Both the position numbers and the translations under genes were made by a program. A stretch of DNA of 54,228 nt from an uncultured Oscillospiraceae bacterium. Its GTDB lineage: Bacteria; Bacillota; Clostridia; Oscillospirales; Oscillospiraceae. Of the stretch, positions 2,545 through 7,036 are shown one piece after another. The stretch is from NCBI GenBank assembly GCA_947627745.1, contig CANQXH010000004.1:1-54228 (forward strand), read 5' to 3'. Under the pieces are notes generated by a model, which searched no databases, was not told the origin of the DNA, and saw only the letters and a list, made by a program, of their open reading frames with translations. Each line of letters starts with the position of its first letter. Within the stretch, counting starts at the first letter, position 1.

Positions 2545-3407
2545 GCCCATCGGTTTTACAGGAGGAGCGGACGCCCCGGAATTCCGGGGAGGACGGTCTG
2601 AGCCAGTATCTTCAGGAAATTCGCAGCTATCCTCAGCTGACGGCTGAGCAGGAGCGGGCTCTGGCCATGCGCTGCGCCCAGGGAGACGAGGAGGCGGTGC
2701 GGCAGATGGTGAGCGCCAATCTGCGGCTGGTGGTGTCCGTGGCCCGGGAGTACGCCGGGCGGGGGATGCCGCTGCTGGATCTGATCCAGGAGGGCAGTAT
2801 TGGCCTGATCGTGGCCGCCCGGAAATTTGACTATACCCTGGACTATCGCTTTTCCACCTACGCCACCAAGTGGATCCGCCAGGGCATTACCCGGTGCCTG
2901 ATGAACCACAGCGGGATGATCCGGGTGCCCCTCCATACGGCGGAGCGGATGCGCCGGGTCAGCGCCGCTCGGGCGGCGCTGTTGCAGCAGACTGGGGAGG
3001 AACCGACCCCCGCCCAGATCGCCTTGGCCTGTGATTTGCCTGAGGACCGGGTCAAGAAGCTCTTGGAGCTTACGCCCCAGACCTGCTCTCTGGACGCCCC
3101 GGCGGGGGAGGAGGACATCGCTCTGGGCGCGATGCTGGCGGATCAGGAGGCCAGCGAGCCCCAGGAGGAGCTGGTGCGCCAGGAGCTGCGGCAGATTCTG
3201 GGCCAGCTGCTGTCCCAGCTGACGCCACGTCAGCGGCAGGTGCTGGAGCTGCACTTTGGCATGACCGGGCAGACCAGCTATTCCCTGGAAGCCATCAGCA
3301 AGCAATTGGGCATTTCCAAGGAGCGGGTGCGGCAGATCGAGCGGCAGGCCATGGACAAGCTGCAAAAGCTGGGCGTGAGCCTGGGACTGGAGGATTTTTT
3401 GGAGTGA
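2541..3407 (+). CDS. rpoD: RNA polymerase sigma-70 family factor, RpoD/SigA-like, short
   Basis: Sigma factor that directs RNA polymerase to promoters. 288 residues: region 1.2 (SQYLQEIRSY, about 21-30), region 2 (NLRLVVSVAREYAGRG to WIRQGITRCL, 60-120), region 3 (120-200) and region 4.2 with GISKERVRQIERQAMDKLQ (257-275). Region 1.1 is absent, making it shorter than usual primary sigmas. In region 2.3/2.4 the usual tryptophan pair of YATWWIRQ reads YATKWIRQ, so Lys110 replaces the residue equivalent to E. coli W433; Gln114 and Thr117 (E. coli Q437 and T440) are kept. Position after dnaG suggests the housekeeping factor, but the lysine leaves room for a group 2 role. ATGA overlap with dnaG, GTGA overlap with the next gene. 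Confidence 0.9.
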   Translation: MSPSVLQEERTPRNSGEDGLSQYLQEIRSYPQLTAEQERALAMRCAQGDEEAVRQMVSANLRLVVSVAREYAGRGMPLLDLIQEGSIGLIVAARKFDYTLDYRFSTYATKWIRQGITRCLMNHSGMIRVPLHTAERMRRVSAARAALLQQTGEEPTPAQIALACDLPEDRVKKLLELTPQTCSLDAPAGEEDIALGAMLADQEASEPQEELVRQELRQILGQLLSQLTPRQRQVLELHFGMTGQTSYSLEAISKQLGISKERVRQIERQAMDKLQKLGVSLGLEDFLE

Positions 3408-4414
3408 ACGAGGATTTTTGCTTTGAGATTCCCCCCTACGAGGCGGCGCTGACGGCGCTGGGGCCGGGGGAATCCATTTCGGCGGCCCGGCTGCTGGCGC
3501 TGATCGACGGTCTCAGCCAGACCGAGGCGGAGGATGCTTTTCAGTTGGCGGAGGATCTGGAGCTGCGCCTTCTGATGGATCTGCCCCGGGAGACGGAGCC
3601 CGCCACGCCCAGGCTTGCCTGGGAGGACAGCCAGGTTCGGGCCGGCACCCTGCGCCGGGAGCTGCGGGAAAACGACCCCCTTGCTCTATATCTGCGGGAG
3701 ATCGAGGGACCTGCCCTCTCCGCCGGAGCCATCCAGGCATTGGCGGAGCGCTGCCTAGAAGGGGACCAGCGGGCCATGGAGGCCCTGGCCCGAGGCTACC
3801 TTCCCCGGGCGGCGGAGCTGGCCATGTCCATGACTGGCCGGGGCGTGCTGCTGCTGGACCTGATCCAGGAGGGCAGTCTGGGCTTGTGGCAGAGCGTCAT
3901 GCGCTATGCCGGCGGTGATTTTTCAGCCTTTGCCGACCGTTGGATCCGGTTTGCGCTGGCAAAGGCCGTGATTCTTCAAGCCCATGCCCAGGGCGTGGGC
4001 AGGGAATTGAGAAAGGCCATGGAGTCCTACCAGGCCGCGGACCGTGCGCTGCTGGCCCGGCTGGGCCGAAACCCATTGCCAGAGGAGCTTGCAAAGGCGC
4101 TGGGCTGGGACTTAGAGGAGATCCGGCGACTTGAAAAGTTGATTTCTGACGCCCAAAGCGCTCAAAGGTCCGCCCCGGAGCCGGAGGAACCGGCCCAGAA
4201 TGTGGAGCACACCGCCTATTTCCAGAGCCGCCGCCGGGTGGAGGAGCTGCTGGAGGGCGCGGACCCCGAAGACGTCCGGCTCCTCTCTCTGCGCTTCGGC
4301 CTGGAGACCGGGAAACCCGCCACGGCGGAGGAGACTGCCCAAATGCTGGGCATTTCCCCGGAAGAGGTGCTGCGCCGGGAGGCGGAGGCTCTAAAGCGGC
4401 TGCGGGAAGACTGA
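3404..4414 (+). CDS. Degenerate sigma-70-like protein coupled to rpoD
   Basis: 336 residues, GTG start overlapping the preceding stop as GTGA. Residues 1-65 look like a small helical region 1.1-type domain. Region 1.2 (DPLALYLREIEG, 91-102) and the core-binding region 2.2 (LLLDLIQEGSLGLW, 149-162) are well kept. Region 2.3/2.4 is eroded (FSAFADRWIRFALAKAV), and region 4.2 keeps a helix-turn-helix outline (TAQMLGISPEEV) without the RVRQIE recognition helix. It may therefore bind core polymerase but read promoters poorly or not at all. A dedicated alternative sigma, a competitor of the upstream factor, or a partner supplying region 1.1 are all possible. The sigma-family call is good; the role is unknown. 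Confidence 0.75.
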   Translation: MNEDFCFEIPPYEAALTALGPGESISAARLLALIDGLSQTEAEDAFQLAEDLELRLLMDLPRETEPATPRLAWEDSQVRAGTLRRELRENDPLALYLREIEGPALSAGAIQALAERCLEGDQRAMEALARGYLPRAAELAMSMTGRGVLLLDLIQEGSLGLWQSVMRYAGGDFSAFADRWIRFALAKAVILQAHAQGVGRELRKAMESYQAADRALLARLGRNPLPEELAKALGWDLEEIRRLEKLISDAQSAQRSAPEPEEPAQNVEHTAYFQSRRRVEELLEGADPEDVRLLSLRFGLETGKPATAEETAQMLGISPEEVLRREAEALKRLRED

Positions 4415-4430
4415 AAACGGAGGAGATACC

Positions 4431-5111
4431 ATGGAAAAGACCTACGCCGTCGCCATCGACGGCCCCGCCGGCGCGGGAAAAAGCACCCTGGCCCGGCTTT
4501 TGGCCCAGGAGCTGGGGTGGTATTATGTGGACACGGGGGCGATCTACCGCACCGTTGCCTATTTTCTGGATCTGCTGGGGATCAGCCCCAAGGACGCCGA
4601 CGGGGTGGCCCGTTACATCGACGAGGTGAACGTGGAGATCCGCTATGACGAGCAAGGTGTCCAGCACATGTGGATGAACGGCATGGACGTGACGGAGGAG
4701 ATCCGCACCCCGGACATCTCCCAGAAGGCGTCTCTGGTCTCCGCCCATCCGCCCGTGCGGCAGGCTCTGCTGGAAATGCAGCGGGACCTGGCGCAGCGGC
4801 ACAACGTGGTGATGGACGGCCGAGACATTGGCACGGTGGTGCTGCCCCAGGCGGCGGTGAAGCTGTTCCTCACCGCCTCCCCGGAGGTCCGGGCGCAACG
4901 CCGCTACGCGGAGCTGCGGGCTAAGGGTAAGAAAGACACCTATGAGCAGGTTCTGGAGGATCTGCGCCGCCGGGACCGGCAGGACACCACTCGCTCCGTC
5001 GCCCCCCTGCGTCAGGCCCCCGACGCGGTGCTGCTGGACACCACCGAGCTGGACATTCCCCAGACCCTGGACGCCATGCGGGCCATCGTCCGGGAAAAGA
5101 CCGGCCTATGA
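4431..5111 (+). CDS. cmk: Cytidylate kinase
   Basis: Phosphorylates CMP/dCMP to the diphosphates using ATP. 226 residues, ATG at 4431 behind GGAGGAGATACC. The P-loop GPAGAGKST lies at about residues 11-19, followed by the typical YYVDTGAIYRTVAY substrate segment and the MDGRDIGTVVLP motif (about 127-138), both diagnostic for bacterial Cmk. The C-terminal lid region has RRRDRQDTTRSVAPL. Its stop overlaps the next ATG as ATGA. A cmk followed by ispH-S1 is a recurring clostridial arrangement. Confidence 0.97.
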   Translation: MEKTYAVAIDGPAGAGKSTLARLLAQELGWYYVDTGAIYRTVAYFLDLLGISPKDADGVARYIDEVNVEIRYDEQGVQHMWMNGMDVTEEIRTPDISQKASLVSAHPPVRQALLEMQRDLAQRHNVVMDGRDIGTVVLPQAAVKLFLTASPEVRAQRRYAELRAKGKKDTYEQVLEDLRRRDRQDTTRSVAPLRQAPDAVLLDTTELDIPQTLDAMRAIVREKTGL

Positions 5112-7036
5112 GCGTCCGCCTTGCCGAGAGCGCCGGCTTCTGCTTCGGCGTGGACCGGGCCATGGGCCTGGCGGAGCAGGCGGCCAAAGAGGGGAGACAG
5201 GTGGTCACCCTGGGCCCCATCATCCACAATCGTCACGCGGTGGCCCACCTGGAGGAGCTGGGAGTCCGGGTTATTGACCGGCCCCAGGACGCCCCGGCGG
5301 GCGCGGCGGTGGTCATCCGCTCCCACGGGGTGGGCCGGGAGGTTTACCGGGCCTTGGAGGAGACCGGGGTGGCGGTGATCGACGCCACCTGCCCCTTCGT
5401 CAAGCGGATCCACCGGATCGTGGCCCAGGCGGAGCGGGAAGGGCGACTCAGTCTGATCATCGGCCAGCGGGCCCACCCGGAGGTGGCCGGGATCGCCGGT
5501 TGGTGCGGAAACTGTGTGGTGTGCGAAAGTCCGCAGGAGCTGGAAAATTGGTCAAAATCGCCCGAAATCCCGTCGGATTTGCCAATTTGCATGGTTTGTC
5601 AGACAACTTCCCCCGAATCTTTGTGGGAAATGTGCGAAAAAATTGCGAAAAAACAGTTTACTAACTTGAAATTTTTTGATACAATATGTAAAGCAACAGA
5701 GTATCGGCAGAATGAGGCAGCTTTACTCAGCGAAGGCTGCCAGGCCATGGTGATCGTGGGGGACCGCACCAGTTCCAACACGAAACGCCTGGCGATGATC
5801 TGCCGGGAGCATTGCGAAAAAGTCGTACTGGTGGACAGTGCCTCGGAGCTGGAGCCGGCCTTTTTCCGCGGTGTGACGGATGTTGGAGTCACGGCGGGCG
5901 CATCTACGCCGGCGTGGATTATAAAGGAGGTCAACAAGAAAATGAGCGAAATCATCAATGCCGAGGCAGGCCAGGAGGAGAGCTTTGAGGCCCTGCTGGA
6001 GCAGTCCATCAAAACTTTGAATACTGGAGATAAGGTCACTGGCGTCGTGACAGGCTTCGGAGCTACCGAGGTGCAGATCGACCTTGGCACCAAGCACGCC
6101 GGCTATATCCCCAACGACGAGGTCAGTTCCGATCCTTCCATAAAGCCCGAGGATGTACTCCATGTGGGCGACGAGGTCGAGGTTTTCGTGGTGCGCGTAA
6201 ACGACCAGGAGGGCACCTGCCAGCTGTCCAAGAAGAAGCTGGACGGAATGCGGGTCTGGGACGAGATGGCGGCCTATGCCGAGGAAAAGACCACCGTCGA
6301 AGGGACCATTACCGAGGACAATAAGGGCGGCCTGGTCGCCAATGTGAAGGGCGTTCGGGTGTTCATTCCCGCCTCTCAGTCCGGGATCGCCAAGGGCGGC
6401 GATATGAAGGCCATGGTGGGCAAGACCGTCAAGCTGAAGATTACCGAGGTCAACCGGGCCCGCCGCCGGGTCATCGGCTCCATCCGGGCCGTTGCCGCCG
6501 AGGAGCGGAAGGCCGCCCAGGAGAAGATCTGGAGCGAGATCGAGAACGGCAAGAAGTACCACGGCGTGGTGAAGTCCCTGACTTCCTACGGCGCCTTTGT
6601 GGATATCGGCGGCGTGGACGGCATGGTCCATGTTTCCGAGCTGAGCTGGAACCGGATCAAGACCCCCGCCGACGTGGTGAAGGTGGGCGATGAGATCGAC
6701 GTGTTCGTCATCTCCTTCGATCCTGTGAAGCACAAGATCTCCCTGGGCTACAAGACCCCGGAGATGAACCCCTGGAATCAGTTTATGACCAAGTTCCAGA
6801 CCGGCGACGTGGTGGACGCCAAGATTGTCAAGCTGATGACCTTCGGCGCCTTTGCCGAGATCATTCCCGGTGTGGACGGCCTGATCCACATCTCCCAGAT
6901 TGCGGACCGCCGCATCGGCAAGCCCGAGGACGTGCTGAAGGAGGGCCAGGAGGTCAAGGTGAAGATCACCGACATCGACGCGGAGAACAAGCGGATCTCC
7001 CTGTCCATCCGGGCGCTGCTGGAAGCCGCCGAATAA
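5108..7036 (+). CDS. ispH: IspH-ribosomal protein S1 fusion
   Basis: Residues 1 to about 280 are 4-hydroxy-3-methylbut-2-enyl diphosphate reductase, the last step of the MEP isoprenoid pathway. The three Fe-S cysteines are Cys12 (AGFCFGVDRAM), Cys95 (IDATCPFV) and Cys194 (DTICKATEYRQ). Residues about 300-640 hold four S1 RNA-binding repeats (near 306-378, 395-462, 480-550 and 565-637), as in ribosomal protein S1. This fusion is known in Clostridia. 642 residues, ATG overlapping the cmk stop. Unusually, an AT-rich patch inside the ispH half carries a promoter-like pair, and a strong ribosome site precedes an in-frame ATG at 5942 exactly at the domain junction. A stand-alone S1 product is therefore plausible. 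Confidence 0.95.
   Translation: MSVRLAESAGFCFGVDRAMGLAEQAAKEGRQVVTLGPIIHNRHAVAHLEELGVRVIDRPQDAPAGAAVVIRSHGVGREVYRALEETGVAVIDATCPFVKRIHRIVAQAEREGRLSLIIGQRAHPEVAGIAGWCGNCVVCESPQELENWSKSPEIPSDLPICMVCQTTSPESLWEMCEKIAKKQFTNLKFFDTICKATEYRQNEAALLSEGCQAMVIVGDRTSSNTKRLAMICREHCEKVVLVDSASELEPAFFRGVTDVGVTAGASTPAWIIKEVNKKMSEIINAEAGQEESFEALLEQSIKTLNTGDKVTGVVTGFGATEVQIDLGTKHAGYIPNDEVSSDPSIKPEDVLHVGDEVEVFVVRVNDQEGTCQLSKKKLDGMRVWDEMAAYAEEKTTVEGTITEDNKGGLVANVKGVRVFIPASQSGIAKGGDMKAMVGKTVKLKITEVNRARRRVIGSIRAVAAEERKAAQEKIWSEIENGKKYHGVVKSLTSYGAFVDIGGVDGMVHVSELSWNRIKTPADVVKVGDEIDVFVISFDPVKHKISLGYKTPEMNPWNQFMTKFQTGDVVDAKIVKLMTFGAFAEIIPGVDGLIHISQIADRRIGKPEDVLKEGQEVKVKITDIDAENKRISLSIRALLEAAE
5657..5685 (+). promoter_or_regulatory. 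Candidate internal promoter in the ispH half
   Basis: TTTACT (5657-5662), 17-nt spacer, TACAAT (5680-5685), inside a distinctly AT-rich stretch of an otherwise GC-rich gene. It would yield a transcript covering only the S1 part. Confidence 0.45.
5923..5944 (+). promoter_or_regulatory. Internal ribosome binding site and ATG at the IspH/S1 junction
   Basis: AAAGGAGGT (5923-5931) is followed, ten bases on, by an in-frame ATG (5942-5944, residue 279), just after the conserved IspH C-terminal segment. Initiation here would give a 364-residue S1 protein. Confidence 0.55.

Follow-up and report, generated by a model that had tools for sequence, protein, structure and literature searches.

Conserved promoter and start-site signals inside an IspH-S1 fusion gene of Oscillospiraceae point to a probable second product, free ribosomal protein S1

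The locus and its fused reading frame

The window analysed here is a stretch of 54,228 nucleotides from an uncultured Oscillospiraceae bacterium (GenBank assembly GCA_947627745.1, contig CANQXH010000004.1). Within it lies an open reading frame (Table 1) whose ATG overlaps the stop codon of cmk (ATGA, 5108-5111) and whose product, by Pfam, has the domain architecture of the IspH-RPS1 proteins, with a LYTB domain at residues 3-279 followed by four S1 repeats. The frame is the sole full-length copy in the genome, where no other IspH match to the protein was found and the S1 part is echoed in two short stretches only. In a nine-member alignment of the IspH part C12, C95, and C194 are invariant, and these we take, from what is established for IspH, to be the cysteine ligands that bind its cluster. 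The protein is a member of the known IspH-RPS1 fusions, with enzyme activity predicted; the closest named hit is Oscillospiraceae bacterium isolate SIG501 (76% identity). The same strand carries, directly before cmk-ispH-S1, a gene for a sigma-70-family protein with regions 2, 3, and 4 (336 aa, 3404-4414). The sole Rfam match, a eukaryotic IRES in cmk (4814-4868), scored 23.9 bits against a cut-off of 40 and was taken as chance.

The IspH-RPS1 "Rosetta stone" fusion, typical of anaerobes, was described by Rao et al. 2015 (PMC4746011) with the same order of parts, IspH and then four S1 repeats. It was treated there as one full-length protein, for which the stringent response or Fe/O2 sensing was proposed as the role, and the main text mentions no start codon, Shine-Dalgarno sequence, or free RPS1.

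Table 1. Features of the IspH-S1 gene, in window coordinates
Feature	Position	Strand	Remarks
IspH-S1 fusion ORF, 642 aa	5108..7036	+	stop-free reading frame
A-tract, UP-like, codons Lys181-Lys182	5648..5653	+	just upstream of the -35; Lys181 AAA in 125/125 family loci
Putative -35 element TTTACT (family consensus TGTACA)	5657..5662	+	A at the third base of Thr185 in 116/124 (21.7 expected)
Putative extended -10 TGATACAAT, codons Phe190-Ile193	5677..5685	+	motif kept in 125/127 family loci
Internal Shine-Dalgarno AAAGGAGGT, codons Ile272-Val275	5923..5931	+	GGAGG in 276/277 fused entries
Internal start ATG, Met279 (codon 279), in frame	5942..5944	+	spacing of 11 nt from GGAGG and 10 from the final T
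Free ribosomal protein S1 (predicted), 364 aa with four S1 repeats	5942..7036	+	frame checked; production predicted
Third element conserved at synonymous sites, consensus AAAACTTTAAATACAGGAGA, codons 302-308	6011..6030	+	z of 11-19 in the third-base scan (codons 303-307)

The predicted internal start site and its conservation

The initial annotation had placed a Shine-Dalgarno sequence ten bases before an in-frame ATG exactly at the domain boundary, and this description is accurate in each part: AAAGGAGGT and codon 279 stand in that relation, and the LYTB match ends at residue 279 with the S1 repeats after it. Judged on the window alone, the pair is weak evidence and mildly unusual, ranking fourth by anti-SD pairing energy among 265 internal in-frame ATGs, with the exact string AAAGGAGGT-N10-ATG found once against 0.04 expected. 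What appears decisive is conservation across relatives rather than such window statistics.

Relatives were sampled at two depths. The family sample comprised 201 genomes of 106 genera, the window's own included, from which the junction was extracted at 128 loci; the wider sample reached through order, class, and phylum and gave, with the family, 277 fused entries, equivalent to about 270 distinct loci since a few genomes were counted at two levels. At the family junctions both ATG and GGAGG are present in 128 of 128 and always 11 nt apart, despite a linker that varies in sequence and length. From the same family out to other classes of the phylum, GGAGG with an in-frame ATG occurs in 276 of the 277 fused entries, at a spacing of 11 nt in 264 and of 8 nt in 12. 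Conservation in related fusions, on which the initial annotation had made its proposal depend, is therefore near-invariant for Shine-Dalgarno sequence, ATG, and spacing alike, across more than 70 family-level groups as counted by the tool's family numbers, a spread that takes in much of the Firmicutes. A chance origin of the signals, on which the window alone was not decisive, is ruled out by this conservation.

The codons that form the site behave differently from their neighbours. Within the family Lys273 is AAG in 124 of 124 loci, where the codon usage of the individual genes would predict 87.5, and Glu274 is GAG in 128 of 128 (81 expected on the same basis), in statistics that treat related loci as independent, which strictly they are not; nearby codons such as Thr262 and Pro268 show mixed synonymous choice. 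Glu274 remains GAG in 278 of 278 across the wider sample, including all 46 loci below 40% GC, in which the gene-wide share of GAG is 0.23 (log10 P about -31 if the loci were independent, which is not strictly so). Residue 273 itself varies (K/E/R/Q/M/L/G), its third base being G save for one exception, AGA in L247, and once among the named relatives, in Sporomusaceae (L373), the internal ATG is replaced by GTG, also a start codon. Because residue 273 changes while its third base stays G, GAG is fixed, and ATG gives way to GTG, selection is, on this comparative evidence, acting on the nucleotides that form the start site, beyond the residues they encode. Protein constraint on K-E-V and M is ruled out by the same facts, the synonymous choice being fixed against codon usage and the third base of 273 kept. 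An unbiased third-base scan of 629 codons in 124 loci placed signals of the ribosome-binding site at codons 269-272 and 281-282, among the strongest in the gene. In L363 and L386 the usual site is without GGAGG, and a Shine-Dalgarno-like sequence and ATG stand in the linker instead.

Loci in which the fusion is broken are informative natural experiments. Small indels split ispH from S1 in some genomes and the ribosome-binding site remains: in L181, L183, L184, and L186 the ispH frame differs from the S1 frame after the Shine-Dalgarno sequence, and S1 starts 9-10 nt past the same GGAGG. In L384 and five f102 loci (L379-L383) short ispH reading frames run into S1, with GGAGG in the end of ispH. 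The overlapping ispH-rpsA pairs of the same phylum (f102, L384, L181, L183, L184) resemble the fusion in carrying the same Shine-Dalgarno sequence in the 3' end of ispH before S1, and differ in that their S1 sits in another frame, hence no fusion. IspH genes that are without the S1 arrangement (L376-L378, L387, L390, L392, L394) have no GGAGG at the corresponding position, and in the named loci L368-L370, where ispH has its own stop, the site likewise is without GGAGG. Judged from gene arrangement, these comparisons show the same ribosome-binding region in use ahead of stand-alone S1 genes.

Such loci also bear on what else a Shine-Dalgarno-like sequence might do here. It might be kept to slow ribosomes at the IspH/S1 boundary as a folding pause, with no initiation, a reading suggested by its place where the LYTB domain ends and by a GGAGG-ATG spacing above the usual. 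A pause needs no start codon, yet wherever a fused entry has kept GGAGG it has kept ATG too, and the codon is once replaced by GTG; the out-of-frame S1 genes start 9-10 nt past the same sequence, and the promoter described below would be left unexplained, so that pausing is very unlikely. As for the spacing, other starts in the window have 6-7 nt (by counts in the window and the named loci), and Shine-Dalgarno spacings in S. aureus are 2-3 nt longer than those in E. coli (PMC13009471). Either 8 or 11 nt is a natural choice for an in-frame site, and 11 nt may hold initiation at a set level.

An upstream Shine-Dalgarno sequence can also stimulate frameshifting, and the ATGA found at the junction of many loci holds a stop in the +1 frame, which would suit a programmed frameshift that released free IspH. 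No conserved slippery sequence was found at the junction in the relatives' loci compared, however, and ATGA is not kept (ATGGAT, ATGTGC, and ATGGAA are common) while ATG is, which leaves frameshifting scarcely credible. It is, likewise, highly improbable that the signals are neutral relics of an ancestral separate rpsA gene that have lingered after fusion. Split and overlapping arrangements with the same Shine-Dalgarno sequence do occur in the order and the phylum, but neutral sites would not last at synonymous positions over so many family-level groups with the neighbouring codons mixed.

The AT-rich patch and the predicted promoter

In the ispH half the initial annotation had noted TTTACT-17-TACAAT in an AT-rich patch unlike its GC-rich surroundings. 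Both observations hold: the motif lies at 5657-5685, and GC content is 0.39 at 5550-5699 against about 0.70 upstream, the DNA around the patch being about 60-70% GC. TACAAT (5680-5685) follows TTTACT after a 17-nt spacer and TG at 5677-5678 makes the -10 extended, so that a sigma-70-type -35/-10 pair in the 16-18 nt spacing range is present with 9 of 12 matches, the window's -35, TTTACT, being a weak match. On the window alone the evidence for a promoter is weak, since 4 kb holds two sigma-70-like sites and shuffled sequence 0.8 +/- 0.8; the string TTTGATACAATATG occurs once in the 2.33-Mb genome.

Across relatives the picture is sharper. Over TTTGATACAATATG synonymous choice is near-invariant in 125 family loci, with Asp191 as GAT in 125, Thr192 as ACA in 124, Ile193 as ATA in 122, and Phe190 as TTT in 117, and the family consensus, drawn by eye, reads AAAAAAA-NN-GTGTACAAAY-N3-RAAATNTTTGATACAATATG. 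GC3, which is about 0.75 for most of the gene, falls family-wide to 0.22-0.27 in codons 173-192, and a recent foreign insert is ruled out as the source of the patch, the trough being family-wide at the same codons. The third-base scan placed promoter signals at codons 174-197, again among the strongest. Outside the family the motif fades: TGATACAAT is present in 125 of 127 loci of the family, 69 of 81 at order/class level, 15 of 40 further out in the class, and one of 28 at phylum level, and the pattern TNTAC-N15-TGATACAAT in 226 of 401 loci. The GC3 trough tracks the motif (mean difference 0.42 with it and 0.05 without). The AT patch that the initial annotation had wished to see conserved is thus kept at synonymous sites in the family and most of the order, and the predicted promoter is limited to a clade, the ribosome-binding site being more widespread. 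The promoter pattern is present as well in the split loci L181, L183, L184, and L384. Cultured relatives such as Flavonifractor and Oscillibacter (L298, L300) carry these signals too.

A further natural experiment is a single genome of 85% completeness (G068), in which most of ispH is lost at the S1 locus (L118). A promoter island of about 95 bp, with 83-89% identity to relatives, is left there. The 3' end of ispH is also kept, with Shine-Dalgarno sequence, ATG, and S1, though the codons for Cys194 and Trp270 are stops. An ispH of different type lies elsewhere in that genome (L399).

Conceivably the ribosome-binding site acts by itself and free S1 would come from the long transcript only, the AT patch being a local feature of codon use or protein folding. 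The patch does cover an IspH segment in which the conserved DTIC cluster motif lies, and most phylum-level loci are without the promoter motif. Against this, the conserved string has an extended -10, a 17-nt spacing, and the -35-like TGTACA, its third bases persist through a change of residue (Phe190), and G068 retains it in a decayed ispH; we regard the ribosome-binding site acting alone as unlikely.

Promoter, ribosome-binding site, and the element at 6011-6030 are the strongest synonymous-site constraints in the gene across relatives. The last of these lies inside the S1 part, about 70 nt past the internal ATG, and recurs in split loci and in part of the other Clostridia.

One frame, two predicted products

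The comparisons across relatives show nucleotide-level selection on the predicted promoter, the Shine-Dalgarno sequence, the start codon, and their spacing. Given that the start signals and spacing are near-invariant, that the promoter is conserved, and that the ribosome-binding site is kept in frame-broken genomes, the initial annotation's suggestion of two proteins from the fusion gene is supported, and the gene most likely makes both the fusion and a free 364-aa S1. We put at roughly 0.88 the probability that it yields the 642-aa fusion together with an S1 transcript from the internal promoter and free S1 from the internal start. A long transcript from upstream cmk-ispH, entered by ribosomes at 5108, would give the fusion. 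The extended -10 promoter would give a second, S1-specific transcript, with RNA polymerase predicted to start at about 5691-5693 and a leader of about 250 nt, for which no common fold was obvious by eye in single-sequence folds. Ribosomes starting at 5942 on either transcript would then produce free S1. We infer from the conserved signals that both sites are used in the Oscillospiraceae source organism, the promoter by RNA polymerase and the start site by ribosomes; the amounts in which each product would arise are likewise a matter of prediction.

S1 is needed at about ribosome number, and the need for IspH is lower. The benefit of the arrangement may be that S1 can reach ribosomal levels whatever the supply of the enzyme, and a decoupling of S1 supply from isoprenoid synthesis may reasonably be inferred. 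More tentatively, and perhaps doubtfully, the IspH-S1 fusion of Clostridia might in essence be a two-gene operon hidden in one frame, in which free S1 is the main product and the fusion a minor one, and in which ribosome traffic from ispH over the internal start tunes S1 supply, perhaps with S1 binding at 6011-6030.

Related systems are known. Cas11b is likewise a shorter C-terminal protein, made from cas8b by an internal start in the same frame (PMC11899642), production here being predicted only; the second product here differs in being a ribosomal protein and, in one clade, in having an internal promoter as well. Intragenic sigma-70-type promoters in operons (e.g. PMC12083536) similarly lie in coding sequence and feed a downstream coding part, whereas here that part shares the frame of the promoter-bearing gene and is fused to it. 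The fusion is already known and internal in-frame starts are a known kind, and the internal start of IspH-S1 appears unreported: no report of free S1 or of an internal start in these genes was found in the literature searched, most subscription papers lying outside its coverage, and a profiling paper on C. ljungdahlii names RpsA and has nothing on the IspH-S1 junction.

Many anaerobes, of the gut and elsewhere, have IspH-S1 fusions, and the reason for joining an isoprenoid enzyme to a ribosomal protein has been a puzzle. The conserved signals within the gene suggest that the fusion is half the story and that free S1 is very probably also made. The puzzle of the fusion becomes directly testable, and the annotation of such genes would change. 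If the reading as a hidden operon were true, the gene itself would couple the expression of isoprenoid genes to the supply of ribosomes. More broadly, the gene is a clear example of a regulatory code and a protein code sharing one stretch of sequence over long evolutionary times.
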